Shown in pieces: positions 9,512-14,669 of a DNA stretch of 64,000 bases; position 1 is the stretch's first letter, and the number at the start of each line of letters is the position of its first letter. A model generated the notes under the pieces. The model was given only the letters and a program-made list of their open reading frames with translations, did no database searches and was not told the DNA's origin. The stretch covers positions 2,542,001-2,606,000 of the forward strand of contig NZ_CP081958.1 of NCBI RefSeq assembly GCF_019823105.1, given 5' to 3'. Both the position numbers and the translations under genes were made by a program. Origin of the DNA: Halobaculum magnesiiphilum. GTDB taxonomy: Archaea > Halobacteriota > Halobacteria > Halobacteriales > Haloferacaceae.

Positions 9512-9615
9512 TGGGCCCAGAGGGATTCGAACCCTCGACCGCCCGGTGTCCCATCCGACGGCCGAAGCCGATCGGAGTATGAGCCGGGTGCTATACCAGA
9601 CTAAGCTATGGGCCC
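9512..9615 (-). tRNA. tRNA with CAT anticodon (elongator Met or Ile2), 30-nt intron
   Basis: The 7-bp acceptor stem GGGCCCA pairs with TGGGCCC at the other end, with discriminator A. A D-arm with GG, an anticodon stem CCCGG/CCGGG and a T-arm GAGGGTTCGAATCCCTC are present. The loop reads CTCATA, then is interrupted by a 30-base intron (9548-9577) at the canonical 37/38 position, then continues A-CCGGG. The intron folds as TCCGA/TCGGA and CGGC-TTCG-GCCG, consistent with a bulge-helix-bulge splice site. The mature tRNA is 74 nt without CCA. CAT could be elongator Met or, with agmatidine at C34, Ile decoding AUA. The GGGCCCA body does not look like the initiator (AGCGGG). Confidence 0.9.
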
Positions 9616-9720
9616 TCGTCGCCGTCATTGTCGGGCCGCAGTCAAGTAGTTTCCCTTCCGGCGAGCGCGTGCGCGTGTCGGCCTACCTCCGGCTCACGGG
9701 TCGGAACGAAATCGAGGAAG

Positions 9721-9823
9721 CGCCGAAGCCAGGACTCGAACCTGGGACCACCTCGTTTCTGCGGGAGACAGGGGACCTGAATCCCGTAACAGCGAGGCGC
9801 TCTACCAGCTGAGCTACTTCGGC
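9721..9823 (-). tRNA. tRNA-Asn (GTT) with a 30-nt intron
   Basis: Acceptor stem GCCGAAG/CTTCGGC with discriminator G, D-arm GCTCAGCTGGTAGAGC, anticodon stem CCTCG/CGAGG and T-arm CCAGG-TTCGAGT-CCTGG. The loop CTGTTA gives anticodon GTT (Asn). It is interrupted at position 37/38 by a 30-base intron (9757-9786) with nested stems CGGGA/TCCCG and CAGG/CCTG. Mature length is 73 nt without CCA. It lies 105 bases upstream of the CAT tRNA on the same strand, so the two may form one transcript. It is divergent from the CCA-adding enzyme gene. Encoded CCA is absent in both, so both depend on that enzyme. Confidence 0.92.
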
Positions 9824-9982: not shown

Positions 9983-11443
9983 ATGACCGACCCGGACGCC
10001 GAGGCCGACGGCGACGTGGACGCCCACGATCCCGGCGACGAACCCGCCGCCGGCGACGACCTCGACGCGGTGCTTGCGGCGGTGTGCGAGCGGGTCACCC
10101 CCGACGCCGACGAGCGCGCGCGGATGGAGGCGGCCGCCGCCGACCTCGCCGAGCGCGCCCGCGACGCCGTCGCGGAGCTCCCCTCGCCCGCCGACGAGGC
10201 CGACGTGCTCACCGTCGGGTCGACCGCCCGCGGCACGTGGCTCGCGGGCGACCGCGACATCGACCTGTTCGTCCGGTTCCCGACGGCCCTCTCCCGGGAG
10301 GACCTGGAGCGGCTCGGCCTGCGCGTCGGCCACGCGGTGCTCCCCGACGGCGAGGAGGAGTACGCCGAACACCCGTACGTCGTCGGCGCCGTCGACGGCT
10401 TCGACGTGGACCTGGTCCCCTGCTACGGCGTCGACGCCGCCACCGAGATCCGCACGGCCGTCGACCGAACGCCGTTCCACAACGAGTACCTCCGCGACCG
10501 GCTGACCGACGACCTCGCGGACGACGTTCGCGTCCTCAAGGCGTTCCTGAAGGGCGTCGGCGTCTACGGCAGCAACCTCCGTACCCGGGGCTTCTCCGGG
10601 TACCTCACCGAGCTGCTCGTGCTCGAACACGGCGGCGCCCGCGGGACGCTGGAGGCGGTCGCCGACTGGCACCCGCCGGTCCGGTTCGACCCGGAGGACC
10701 ACGGCACCGCCGAGTTCGACGACCCGCTCGTCGTCGTCGACCCGACCGACCCCGAGCGCAACGTCGCGGCCGTGCTCTCGGGCGACAACCTCGCCCGTCT
10801 CCAGCATCACGCGCGCGACCTGCTCGCGGACCCGCGGACGGACCCGTTCTTCCCCGAGCCGACCGAGCCGATCTCGCCCGAGGAGGTCCGCGAGCACGTC
10901 CGCCGCCGCGACACCGCCCCCCTGGCGGTCGCGTTCGACGCGCCCGACATCGTCGACGACCAACTGTACCCGCAGCTCCGCCGCTCGCTGGCGGGTATCG
11001 AGCGTGAACTCGACGGACTGGGGTTCGACGCGCTCCGGTCCGCGACGTTCGCGGCCGAACGCGACGACGCCGGCGGCGACCGGCGCGCGGTGCTGCTCGT
11101 CGAACTCGCCGACCGGGAACTCCCGGCTATCGAGCGCCACGAGGGGCCGCCGGTCCACGTCCGCGAGCACGCCGCCGGGTTCCACAGGAAGTACGCCGAC
11201 GACCCCGACGCGTACGGCCCGTTCGTCGCCGACGGCCGCTACGTCGTCGAGCGCGAGCGCGACCCCGCCGAGCGCGACGCGGTCGCCGTCCTCGAATCCG
11301 GGCGGGTCTTCGACGCCGCCCTCGGCGCGCGCGTGGAGTCGGCGCTGGAGCGCGGGTACGACGTGCTCGCCGGCGAGGCGGTCGCGACGCTGGCCGACGA
11401 GTTCGGCGCGGACCTGCGAGAGTACTTCGAGCCGTCGGTGTAG
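9983..11443 (+). CDS. cca: CCA tRNA nucleotidyltransferase (archaeal class I)
   Basis: A 486-residue enzyme that adds or repairs the 3'-CCA of tRNAs without a nucleic-acid template. The nucleotidyltransferase signature GSTARGTWL (from 79) is followed by the metal-binding DID (92-94), and the third carboxylate sits in DVDLVPCYG near 139. Length and order match archaeal class I CCA enzymes, after a ~30-residue acidic N-terminal extension typical of halophiles. The neighbouring tRNA genes lack encoded CCA. It is convergent with the histone-deacetylase-family gene. Confidence 0.93.
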   Translation: MTDPDAEADGDVDAHDPGDEPAAGDDLDAVLAAVCERVTPDADERARMEAAAADLAERARDAVAELPSPADEADVLTVGSTARGTWLAGDRDIDLFVRFPTALSREDLERLGLRVGHAVLPDGEEEYAEHPYVVGAVDGFDVDLVPCYGVDAATEIRTAVDRTPFHNEYLRDRLTDDLADDVRVLKAFLKGVGVYGSNLRTRGFSGYLTELLVLEHGGARGTLEAVADWHPPVRFDPEDHGTAEFDDPLVVVDPTDPERNVAAVLSGDNLARLQHHARDLLADPRTDPFFPEPTEPISPEEVREHVRRRDTAPLAVAFDAPDIVDDQLYPQLRRSLAGIERELDGLGFDALRSATFAAERDDAGGDRRAVLLVELADRELPAIERHEGPPVHVREHAAGFHRKYADDPDAYGPFVADGRYVVERERDPAERDAVAVLESGRVFDAALGARVESALERGYDVLAGEAVATLADEFGADLREYFEPSV

Positions 11444-11509: not shown

Positions 11510-12523
11510 TCAGTCCAGATCGAACCGCTCGCGCAGGTCCTCGACCAACGGTGCGCTGCTCGACTCCGGCTCTTTGTCCGGCTCGATCGGCGGCCGACCG
11601 TCGAACGTCTCGTGGACCATCGCGACGCCTTCCGACAGCGTGTCGAGCCCGTAGCCGCCCTCCAGCACGAACCCGAGGCCGGCGTCGACCTCCTCGGCGA
11701 TGGTACGCACGCGATCGGTCATCAGCGCGTACCCCTCCGAGGAGACGCGCATCCGCGAGATCGGGTCGTGGCGGTGGGCGTCGAAGCCGGCGGAGACGAG
11801 CAGGAGGTCGGGATCGAAGCGGTCGAGCACGGGGTCGAGCAGGTCGTCGATCGCGAGCAGGAAGTCCGCGTCGCCGGCGCCGGCGGGCAGCGGGACGTTC
11901 AGGGTCGTCCCCTCGCCGTCGCCCTCACCGACCTCGGTTTCGTCGCCGGTGCCGGGGTAGAGGCCGTCCTCGTGGATCGACGCGTACAGCACGTCGCCGC
12001 GGTCGTAGAAGATGTCCTGCGTCCCGTTGCCGTGGTGCACGTCCCAGTCGAAGATCGCGACGCGGTCGGCGCCGGCGTCGTCGAGCGCGGACTGGGCGGC
12101 GACGGCGGCGTTGTTGACGAAACAAAAGCCCATGGCGTCGTCGTAGACTGCGTGATGGCCCGGCGGCCGGCCGAGCGCGAACGGGGTGTCGCGGCCGGGG
12201 GCGCCGGCGTCCGCGAGCGCCTCCTCGGCGGCCCACTGCGCCTGGCCGGCTGCCGCGCGGGCGGCGTCCCAGGTGCCGCCGGAGGCGACGGTGTCGGGGT
12301 CCCAGTTGCCGCCTCCCGATTCGCAGAAGTCGACGACTTCGTCGACGTAGTCGGACTCGTGAACCGCGTCGATGGCGGCCCGCGAGGCGGGGTCGGCCTC
12401 GACGTACTCGACGCCGTGTTTGCGCTTGAGCCCCTCCCTGATCGCGCGGAGGCGGTCCGGATTTTCGGGGTGGCGATCCCCGGTGTCGTGGTCGAGACAC
12501 GCCTCGCTGTAGCCGAACCGCAT
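11510..12523 (-). CDS. hdaI: Histone-deacetylase / acetoin-utilisation (AcuC) family deacetylase
   Basis: A 337-residue zinc amidohydrolase of the arginase/deacetylase superfamily. Catalytic features are GRPPGHHA (His123-His124), FDWDVHHGNGT (Asp161, His163 zinc/charge-relay region), SAGFDAHRHDP (second zinc Asp) and a C-terminal EGGY tyrosine loop. Family members remove acetyl groups from lysines or polyamines. The gene starts 2 bases after the histone stop codon, so the two are almost certainly co-transcribed, with an RPA-like gene upstream. The symbol follows the Haloferax gene of this type. That the histone is its substrate is only inference; this histone has few lysines. Confidence 0.88.
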   Translation of the reverse strand: MRFGYSEACLDHDTGDRHPENPDRLRAIREGLKRKHGVEYVEADPASRAAIDAVHESDYVDEVVDFCESGGGNWDPDTVASGGTWDAARAAAGQAQWAAEEALADAGAPGRDTPFALGRPPGHHAVYDDAMGFCFVNNAAVAAQSALDDAGADRVAIFDWDVHHGNGTQDIFYDRGDVLYASIHEDGLYPGTGDETEVGEGDGEGTTLNVPLPAGAGDADFLLAIDDLLDPVLDRFDPDLLLVSAGFDAHRHDPISRMRVSSEGYALMTDRVRTIAEEVDAGLGFVLEGGYGLDTLSEGVAMVHETFDGRPPIEPDKEPESSSAPLVEDLRERFDLD

Positions 12524-12525
12524 CG

Positions 12526-12960
12526 CTACCCCTCGAACAGCGCGAAGTACGTCTCGATGTCGTCGGCCTGGACGGTTCTGCGGTCGGCGTGGCGCGCGAG
12601 GAGGGCGGCCGCGCGGGCGACGTTGTCGGCGTAGTCCTCGAGGATGTCCGCGAGCGCGATGCGGGCGTCCATCGAGACGCGGTAGGAGTCGTCGATGTCG
12701 AGGCGCGCGATCCGGTCGACGGGCGCGATGGGCAGCGTCAGCGTCGAACGCTCGACCACCTGCTCGACGCCGAAGTCGGCCGGCATCAGCGTCTTTCGTC
12801 CGTCCGCGGCCGCCCGCTCGGCAGCGTCGGCCGCCAGCGACGCCCCGTGCCGTTGCACGCGTCCGGCCAACTCCTCGGCCGCGCCGGCGCTGACCCGGAG
12901 GTCACCCGCGTTCCGTCGGATGACGTCGTCGACGGGCGCGAACGGCAACTCGACAGTCAT
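12526..12960 (-). CDS. hstA: Doublet archaeal histone
   Basis: A 144-residue protein with two histone folds in one chain: residues 1-66 (LPFAPVDDVIRR ... KTLMPADF) and 76-140 (LPIAPVDRIARL ... RTVQADDIETYF). Fused histone pairs of this kind are the usual halophile form. The chain is acidic and poor in lysine, unlike methanogen histones. I chose ATG 12960: a TATA-like TTATAC on the minus strand (about 12984-12990) is 25-30 bases upstream, which fits a leaderless transcript, and the longer frame to 13020 adds non-histone residues. It is followed 2 bases later by the deacetylase. It may act as a regulator more than a compaction factor, as reported for haloarchaeal histones. Confidence 0.93.
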   Translation of the reverse strand: MTVELPFAPVDDVIRRNAGDLRVSAGAAEELAGRVQRHGASLAADAAERAAADGRKTLMPADFGVEQVVERSTLTLPIAPVDRIARLDIDDSYRVSMDARIALADILEDYADNVARAAALLARHADRRTVQADDIETYFALFEG

Positions 12961-13059
12961 ACACATACGCCGGTGTGTGGCGTGTATAACGCTTTCCGTT
13001 GGCGTGGTTACCGCCCCCACGCGGCCGGCGGATCCGACGCGGCGAGTCGCAGACCCAAC

Positions 13060-14511
13060 TCAGAACACGTCGTCGGCGTCGATGGTCCCGTCGCGCTCGA
13101 CGCCGCGGACGGTGACCTCCTCGCCGAGACGGAGGTTCGCCGAGGTCTCGACCGACCGCGTCTGCGTCCCGTCGTCGAGGACGATCGGGTCGCCCGCCTG
13201 CACGACCGTCCCGGTGAACTCCACGACGCCGCCGTCGTCGCTCGCGTCCGCGCCCGTCGCCTCGTCGCCGTCGGCCTCGGCCGTCGCCGCGGCGGTCGAC
13301 TCGGACGAACTGTCGGCGGACGAACCGGTCGACTCGAAGGAATCGAGGCCGCCCTGACCCGCGTCGCGGCCGCTCGCCCCAGCCGCGTCGTCGGCGGTTC
13401 CGCCGGCGGCGTCCTCCAGCACGGTCACCGAGGAGCGCCAGCCGGCGGAGGCTTCGAGGTCGTCCTGCCAGCCGTCCTGGACCTCCACGTCGGTGAAGAC
13501 GACGCGGTCCGCGAGGTCGATGTCGCGGTCGGCCTTGTCGCCCCACAGGGCCACCCGGATCTCGCCGGTGTCGTCCTTGATTCGGACGTTCCTGACCTGT
13601 CCCTGCGAGCCGTCGTCGCGGTCGAACGTACGCTTCTCGCTCGTCTCGATGACGCCGCCGGCGATGTCGACCACGTCCTCCAGCTCCAGGTCGTCGATGT
13701 CGGTCGTCTCGGGGACGTACTCCACGTCCTCGTCGACCTCCTCGATGGCGCCCCGGGAGCCGACGTGGAGCTCGAGGTCGCCGTCGCGCTCGCGGACGTA
13801 GCCGTCGACGACCTCGACCGTCGTGCCGGCCGCCAGTTCCTCGACGCGGTCGGCCATCTCGTCCCACATGGTGACGCGCACGCGGCCGGTCTCGTCGCCG
13901 ACGGTCATGTTCGACACCTTCCCCTCGGTGCCGTCGTCGCGGTCGAACGTCCGGACGGTGTCGGTGTCGAGGATCACGCCCAGCAGGTCCACGTCGGAGG
14001 CGCCCATCGTGAGGTCCTCGACGCGGTACTGTTCGACCGCCTCCACGTCGACCTCGGCGTCCGGGTCGGGTTCGACCTTGTCGACGGCGACCTCCAGCCC
14101 GCTGTACCCCTCCTTCGGGCGACCCATGATCCGGAGCACGTCGCCCGCCTGGAGGTTCTCCTTCGCGTCGACGGCGACCTGGTCCCACAGCGAGATGGTG
14201 ATCCGGCCGGACTCGTCGGCGACCTCGACGTTGAGGACGTGGCCGTCCTCGTCCTCGCCGTCGCGCTCGAAGGTGCGCACCTCGCCGACGGTCATCACCT
14301 TCGCGAGGAACTTCACGTCGTCCATCCCCGGCTCGATGTCGGCGACGCTGTTGACCTCCTCGTCGCGCAGCTCGTGGGCGATGAGCATCGCCGCGGTCTC
14401 CTCGTCGGCCAGCCCGCCCATGTCCTCGACCTTCTGCTCGACGGCGGCCTCGAACTCCTCGAAGGGGACGTCGGCGTCCAGGTCGTCGTAGACGTCCTCG
14501 ATAGCGCCCAT
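13060..14511 (-). CDS. rpa2: Multi-OB-fold single-stranded DNA-binding protein (RPA-like)
   Basis: A 483-residue protein with an N-terminal helical segment (1-55) and three OB folds at about 62-147, 172-255 and 282-370. Each carries the repeating pattern VRTF(E/D)RD-DG, a V/I-rich strand, then ...SG/TGR(I/V)...(L/M/A)W. An acidic Ser/Gly/Ala linker and a small beta domain (about 425-483) follow. This matches haloarchaeal RPA2, an essential ssDNA-binding protein. There is no zinc finger. ATG 14511 is preferred over 14631, because a minus-strand CTTATG at 14542-14547 is the right distance for a promoter and the upstream 40 residues are not conserved-looking. The histone and deacetylase genes lie downstream on the same strand. 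Confidence 0.9.
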   Translation of the reverse strand: MGAIEDVYDDLDADVPFEEFEAAVEQKVEDMGGLADEETAAMLIAHELRDEEVNSVADIEPGMDDVKFLAKVMTVGEVRTFERDGEDEDGHVLNVEVADESGRITISLWDQVAVDAKENLQAGDVLRIMGRPKEGYSGLEVAVDKVEPDPDAEVDVEAVEQYRVEDLTMGASDVDLLGVILDTDTVRTFDRDDGTEGKVSNMTVGDETGRVRVTMWDEMADRVEELAAGTTVEVVDGYVRERDGDLELHVGSRGAIEEVDEDVEYVPETTDIDDLELEDVVDIAGGVIETSEKRTFDRDDGSQGQVRNVRIKDDTGEIRVALWGDKADRDIDLADRVVFTDVEVQDGWQDDLEASAGWRSSVTVLEDAAGGTADDAAGASGRDAGQGGLDSFESTGSSADSSSESTAAATAEADGDEATGADASDDGGVVEFTGTVVQAGDPIVLDDGTQTRSVETSANLRLGEEVTVRGVERDGTIDADDVF

Positions 14512-14669
14512 AGTCGTACCGGGACCCAGGCAACTCCCGCGCATAAGGGTTCTCGTTCGTCCGGATCCCTCGCTCGCGCTGTCGGCCCCGGCGTCGTCGG
14601 CGGCACCCGCGATCGGCGACTCGTCGGTCATACGCGGGCTGTGTCGGGATCGTATTTGAGGCTACGCGC

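Follow-up and report, generated by a model that had tools for sequence, protein, structure and literature searches.

Neighboring tRNA-Asn and putative tRNA-Ile2 genes of Halobaculum magnesiiphilum each carry a 30-nt intron that is recurrent but patchy among haloarchaea

Within a 64,000-nucleotide stretch of the 3.7-Mb genome of Halobaculum magnesiiphilum (hereafter, the window), two tRNA genes spaced 105 nt apart lie on the minus strand next to the divergent gene for the archaeal CCA tRNA nucleotidyltransferase (cca), which serves as a synteny marker. The features of the locus are as follows.

9512 to 9615, minus strand: tRNA-CAT gene, most likely tRNA-Ile2 (AUA decoder); Rfam RF00005, 60.1 bits
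9578 to 9615, minus strand: tRNA-CAT 5′ exon, through position 37
9548 to 9577, minus strand: tRNA-CAT intron, 30 nt, canonical hBHBh′
9512 to 9547, minus strand: tRNA-CAT 3′ exon, from position 38 to the discriminator
9721 to 9823, minus strand: tRNA-Asn(GTT) gene; Rfam RF00005, 61.1 bits
9787 to 9823, minus strand: tRNA-Asn 5′ exon, through position 37
9757 to 9786, minus strand: tRNA-Asn intron, 30 nt, hBHBh′, by alignment a homolog of the Asn introns in other lineages of haloarchaea
9721 to 9756, minus strand: tRNA-Asn 3′ exon, from position 38 to the discriminator
9983 to 11443, plus strand: archaeal CCA tRNA nucleotidyltransferase gene (cca), divergent neighbor; TIGR03671, 469.5 bits

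Each intron lies directly 3′ of position 37, and the rest of each tRNA is normal according to the Rfam match, with spliced lengths of 74 nt for tRNA-CAT and 73 nt for tRNA-Asn. An initial annotation of this DNA had placed two 30-nt introns at position 37/38, with a CCA-adding enzyme gene alongside in divergent orientation. Both intron intervals proved exact, and the product of the neighboring gene exceeded the TIGR03671 cut-off (281.3 bits) and matched Pfam families PF09249, PF21133, and PF01909. This protein is nearest to those of Halobaculum (85 to 86% identity over the best segment with H. saliterrae, H. litoreum, and H. gomorrense). Beyond cca, positions 11510 to 14631 of the window encode, on the minus strand, a histone-deacetylase-domain protein, an archaeal histone-fold protein, and a replication factor A-type single-stranded DNA-binding protein. 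ARAGORN run without its intron option detected neither tRNA gene of the window, and with introns allowed it miscalled the tRNA-Asn gene of H. saliterrae as Tyr. Annotation must therefore permit introns, or such genes will be missed or misnamed.

The anticodon CAT is by itself indecisive, and the initial annotation had set this tRNA beside elongator tRNA-Met. tRNA-Ile2 (CAU) bears agmatidine at C34, a modification introduced by TiaS. The spliced tRNA-CAT matched the tRNA-Ile(GAT) of the same genome at 59 of 74 positions (80%), the closest of the five own tRNAs compared, and the 75-nt initiator at 44 positions (59%). In addition, the orthologue beside cca was intronless in all eight named Haloferax loci with the gene in the flank, whereas elongator tRNA-Met of H. 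volcanii is interrupted by a 75-nt intron, as given in the accessible text of PMC7714728. Because of this Ile-GAT-like body and the contrast between the intronless Haloferax orthologue and the intron-bearing elongator tRNA-Met, the gene most likely encodes an AUA-reading tRNA-Ile2, in place of the earlier assignment. It is unlikely, in our estimate, that it encodes elongator tRNA-Met, although one of three expected CAT tRNAs remains unaccounted for: an initiator-type CAT tRNA was found in the genome (L042), and three pattern searches of the genome failed to locate an elongator tRNA-Met gene, which leaves some doubt on the Ile2 reading. The only match of one of these searches was a chance match beside an intronless tRNA-Gln(CTG) gene (near C1 1766580; L167); that tRNA-Gln gene was itself missed by the Rfam-based genome search.

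The initial annotation had noted nested hairpins in both introns and had named the absence of a bulge-helix-bulge as refuting; both introns fit such a fold. In the canonical register, all four central-helix pairs form in both the CAT and the Asn intron, followed by an uninterrupted h′ helix of 6 and 4 pairs, respectively; both helices occurred together in a fraction of 4.5 × 10⁻⁵ (CAT) and 3.1 × 10⁻⁴ (Asn) of composition-shuffled introns (200,000 trials each). When the precursors were folded freely (z = −3.1 for CAT and −4.1 for Asn), the CAT precursor adopted exactly the anticodon stem, 3-nt bulges, and 4-bp central helix. The Asn precursor reached the canonical shape with one pair shifted, such that an intron C1-G25 pair replaces the pairing of U35 and the central helix is 3 bp long; its D and T arms were misfolded as well. 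Across 26 distinct Asn introns, pairing of U35 with intron position −6 is possible in every one, whereas intron position +1 is C in 14 (G in 9, A in 2, and T in 1), so the comparison favors the canonical register over the shifted fold for the Asn intron.

The same comparison extends to the fold as a whole. All 26 distinct Asn and all 17 distinct Ile2 introns, which come from related loci, have the full 4/4 central helix. The h′ helix varies among relatives, with pairing retained at its first positions: the +4/−9 pair of the Asn introns occurs as five standard pair types and is paired in 25 of 26, and the +3/−8 pair of the Ile2 introns occurs as four pair types and is paired in 17 of 17. Short h′ helices of 2 bp were seen in one other genome (G037, L162) and in the Arg-TCT intron of H. 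magnesiiphilum. The Lys-TTT and Arg-TCT precursors of H. magnesiiphilum have lowest-energy folds without the canonical register, though its pairs are available to them. The window introns, at 30 nt each, are distinct from tRNA-Trp-type introns, which are 103 to 104 nt long and contain a C/D guide.

From these features, we predict that both are almost certainly protein-spliced tRNA introns of the ordinary archaeal kind. Bases 32 to 35 of the anticodon loop would, in the precursor, pair with bases −6 to −3 of the intron and leave a 3-nt bulge on either side, one comprising positions 36 and 37 and intron +1 and the other comprising intron −2 and −1 and exon position 38. The splicing endonuclease would then cut within the bulges, RNA ligase would join the exons into mature tRNA-Ile2 and tRNA-Asn, and the excised intron would be a small RNA, probably circular. 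According to the accessible text of the H. volcanii studies, EndA of that organism strictly requires hBHBh′ (PMC7714728), repression of endA placed three intron-bearing tRNAs among the most reduced genes (PMC7714728), and the introns of all three intron-bearing tRNAs lie at 37/38 (PMC2584109).

The identical length of the two introns was examined against other introns of the same genome and of other haloarchaea. Besides the Asn and CAT introns, the H. magnesiiphilum genome contains short introns in tRNA-Arg(TCT) (30 nt; gene at C1:1789388-1789494) and tRNA-Lys(TTT) (34 nt; gene at C1:1545879-1545986), together with a 104-nt intron in tRNA-Trp (C1:1090672-1090849). Thirteen Gln-TTG, Arg-TCT, Lys-TTT, Ile2, and Asn precursors from six other genomes had introns of 29 to 38 nt, and Asn introns at cca loci reached 36 nt. 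These results support a soft size class, mostly 29 to 38 nt, for the short haloarchaeal introns of five tRNAs; by comparison, median intron lengths across archaea are mostly 12 to 25 nt per isodecoder in the accessible text of a review (PMC4090602). A size of about 30 nt may reflect the room taken up by the central helix, the bulges, and the h′ hairpin, elements that need about that length and that EndA of H. volcanii strictly requires.

Given such a class, an exact length match within one genus is unremarkable. At loci where both introns were found, nine Halobaculum-type genomes (the own genome counted once; some of the nine may be duplicates) had Asn/Ile2 lengths of 30/30. Lengths elsewhere differed: Saliphagus had 31/29, Natrinema zhouii had 33/31, and two genomes from a different genus (G152 and G179) had 32/33. 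The exact shared length emphasized in the initial annotation is thus a feature of Halobaculum-type genomes that does not hold beyond them, and the length constraint that it suggested stands as a soft size class, with a specific 30-nt constraint disfavored by lengths of 28 to 38 nt. We regard it as very unlikely that function specifically demands 30 nt, as it might if the excised intron acted as a small RNA in its own right. Three of the four short introns in this genome do have that length; however, lengths vary among the precursors measured and down to 28 nt in the CAT gene of G038, intron bodies differ from family to family, and the Asn intron is precisely missing from close relatives. All four short introns of H. 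magnesiiphilum lie in ANN-reading tRNAs. An apparent restriction of short introns to such tRNAs (U36-A37), judged by eye from the true tRNA introns among the matches listed, was rejected as an artifact of a query pattern that, within the H. magnesiiphilum genome, fits almost only these tRNAs; counter to it, an Rfam census of six other genomes, independent of that pattern, found Gln-TTG introns in three.

A shared length had also been taken to suggest that the two introns have a common origin. Aligned with each other, the Asn and Ile2 introns of the window scored −4.5, compared to −1.6 ± 2.7 for structure-preserving shuffles, 88% of which scored as high or higher. Likewise, Asn introns of 15 lineages compared with Ile2 introns of six lineages scored −3.87 versus −3.53 ± 0.28 for structure-preserving shuffles. 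Among themselves, in contrast, the Asn introns of the 15 lineages had a mean alignment score of 3.68 versus −2.55 ± 0.36 for structure-preserving shuffles (0 of 2,000 as high). By this measure the Asn introns of 15 lineages are homologous, their likeness lying far beyond what the helices demand. The Ile2 introns of six lineages were not clearly alike (−3.3 versus −4.15 ± 0.73; 13% of shuffles as high). A common origin of the neighboring introns, for instance through one having been copied into the second gene, a route proposed for Thermoproteales, would fit their equal length and position and the short distance between the genes. Given that neither the window pair nor the wider comparison rose above structure-preserving shuffles and that each intron is found at its own gene in other families too, we rejected this origin as extremely improbable. 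The transposed introns of Thermoproteales likewise involve several tRNAs of one genome, but there similar intron sequences occur across different tRNAs, whereas here the Asn and Ile2 introns, the only pair compared, are dissimilar.

To determine how widespread these introns are, we surveyed cca loci and genomes of haloarchaea. A tRNA-Asn gene lay within 3 kb of cca at 78 of 80 named haloarchaeal cca loci, and a tRNA-CAT gene of the same type did so at 45 of the 80; introns were present in 13 of the 78 and 10 of the 45, respectively. Judged by this gene order, the cca-tRNA neighborhood is evidently old. A pattern search detected a tRNA-Asn intron of 1 to 61 nt in 14 of 60 genomes, the own genome included; this first pattern required at least one intron base and so counts intron-bearing genes only. 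Its matches in two further genomes of that set were not tRNAs and were discarded. A pattern allowing 0 to 60 nt matched in all 194 genomes searched, with Asn introns in at least 17 genomes of three families among the matches listed. For tRNA-CAT, 60 of 145 genomes had an intron of about 29 to 59 nt, though some matches of this class (G125, G096) may be other CAT tRNAs, and 71 had a shorter form, of which 70 were intronless and one (G038) had 28 nt; G096 fell into both classes and 15 genomes into neither. Asn and Ile2 introns in haloarchaea are recurrent but patchy, neither unique nor universal. The distribution that the initial annotation had named as refuting, Asn introns of such length throughout the haloarchaea, was not seen. 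A comparison of the joint presence of the two introns covered five independent pairs.

Several loci received individual treatment in these counts. L138 and L143 were left out, as no tRNA-Asn was found there, and L152 had no cca match. L149 and L150 were scored as Asn intron-bearing by hand and enter neither the alignment-based intron counts nor the Asn Mantel test; the Ile2 intron of L074 was shortened by one base, the 3′ part being one base longer than assumed. Two Rfam tRNA matches longer than 90 nt in G041 (L170, 98 nt; L183, 179 nt), which fit no known intron-bearing tRNA, enter no count. Among the papers listed by searches of the open-access literature, none was seen to deal with Asn or Ile2 introns in haloarchaea, a result of little weight.

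We next considered how the Asn intron acquired its patchy distribution. For seven mature tRNA-Asn sequences, genes with an intron and genes without one exist, the exons being identical; one of these carries the intron in the window, H. saliterrae, and H. gomorrense and lacks it in H. litoreum, which has an Ile2 intron. In H. elongans, two tandem tRNA-Asn copies with the same exons differ in that one has an intron and the other does not. As compared across these sequences, the state of the Asn intron flips precisely and often. On a quickly built cca tree of 98 rows, in which 29 of 94 inner branches are open, the window and the 78 named loci together required at least 10 state changes; the minimum rose to 16 when extra loci, partly picked for their state, were added. 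With a single gain, no transfer, and loss as the sole later event, the window and the named loci would require 22 losses. tRNA-Asn genes with T32 carried an intron in 0 of 12 cases and those with C32 in 16 of 70 (named loci and the window), a pattern as expected if the exon were freed after intron loss; with related species involved, the comparison is no test.

Two tandem tRNA-Asn genes adjoin cca at four loci of Haloferax and its near kin (L113, L115, L116, and L154). In H. elongans and G201, a 31-nt intron interrupts one copy but not the other; in H. larsenii and H. marinum both copies have an intron.

The homology of the Asn introns argues for loss. We tentatively propose, at somewhat less than even confidence, that a single ancestral haloarchaeal Asn intron beside cca was removed exactly and repeatedly, including from one tandem copy in H. 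elongans. It is also possible, if rather doubtful, that lineages acquired the Asn intron several times, by gain or by exchange of intron-bearing tRNA genes, instead of inheriting and losing it. The number of state changes on the cca tree is in keeping with such exchange, as is the weak correlation of intron similarity with the tree across 16 lineages (Mantel r = −0.23, p = 0.08; one of two identical introns, L163/L094, dropped). Moreover, the best-scoring partner of the window Asn intron came from a Natrialbaceae metagenome-assembled genome (L103) at a large tree distance. Against exchange, the correlation was clear with 25 loci (r = −0.47, p = 0.0002), although it leans on close relatives, and the near-constant position of tRNA-Asn beside cca fits vertical descent.

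Two further tRNA loci of H. magnesiiphilum were noted. A divergent tRNA gene cluster adjoins a TROVE/Ro60-type gene (PF05731) at L050:7172-10757 (C1:722171-725756); ARAGORN counts seven tRNAs, including one that follows the gene. TROVE/Ro60-type proteins 95 to 97% identical are found on plasmids of Haloplanus, Halosimplex, Halorussus, Natrinema, and Halobaculum roseum; identity is 74% with Haloarcula halophila and 45% with halovirus HGTV-1. The chromosomal cluster looks reduced by its gene count, as 14 tRNAs are present at each of three of these plasmid loci and 23 in Haloarcula halophila. TROVE genes with tRNA clusters have already been described (20 of 29 archaeal clusters, in the accessible text of PMC6333295). 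On the 271-kb second contig, a tRNA-Glu(CTC) gene (C2:233311-233385; L022) had a low Rfam score of 40.9 bits.

In relation to known systems, the window introns resemble those of H. volcanii, which belongs to the same order of archaea, in position 37/38 and in hBHBh′. The accessible text of PMC7714728 and PMC2584109 gives such haloarchaeal introns for Trp, elongator Met, and Gln, and in H. volcanii reports tRNA-Trp (103 nt), elongator tRNA-Met (75 nt), and tRNA-Gln(UUG) (31 nt) as the only three intron-bearing tRNAs. The Gln-UUG intron falls in the same size class as the window introns, whereas the isoacceptors differ, being Asn and Ile2 in the window. More broadly, a review (PMC4090602) states, in its accessible text, that no isodecoder of sequenced archaea is without introns, that about 8% of euryarchaeal tRNA genes carry them, and that the canonical type in Euryarchaeota is a single intron at the canonical position with a bulge-helix-bulge, as in the window.

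Taken alone, the intron pair is ordinary, and its modest interest comes from a conserved locus at which introns are patchily distributed yet exactly present or absent. Short introns extend across haloarchaeal tRNA-Asn, tRNA-Ile2, tRNA-Arg(UCU), tRNA-Lys(UUU), and tRNA-Gln(UUG), those of Asn and Ile2 being recurrent, so that H. volcanii with its three introns gives a partial picture. If the Asn intron was indeed ancestral and repeatedly removed, the locus would constitute a natural series of precise intron losses that may reveal the mechanism of removal, for example, conversion, whether by an intronless allele or by a reverse transcript of the mature tRNA.
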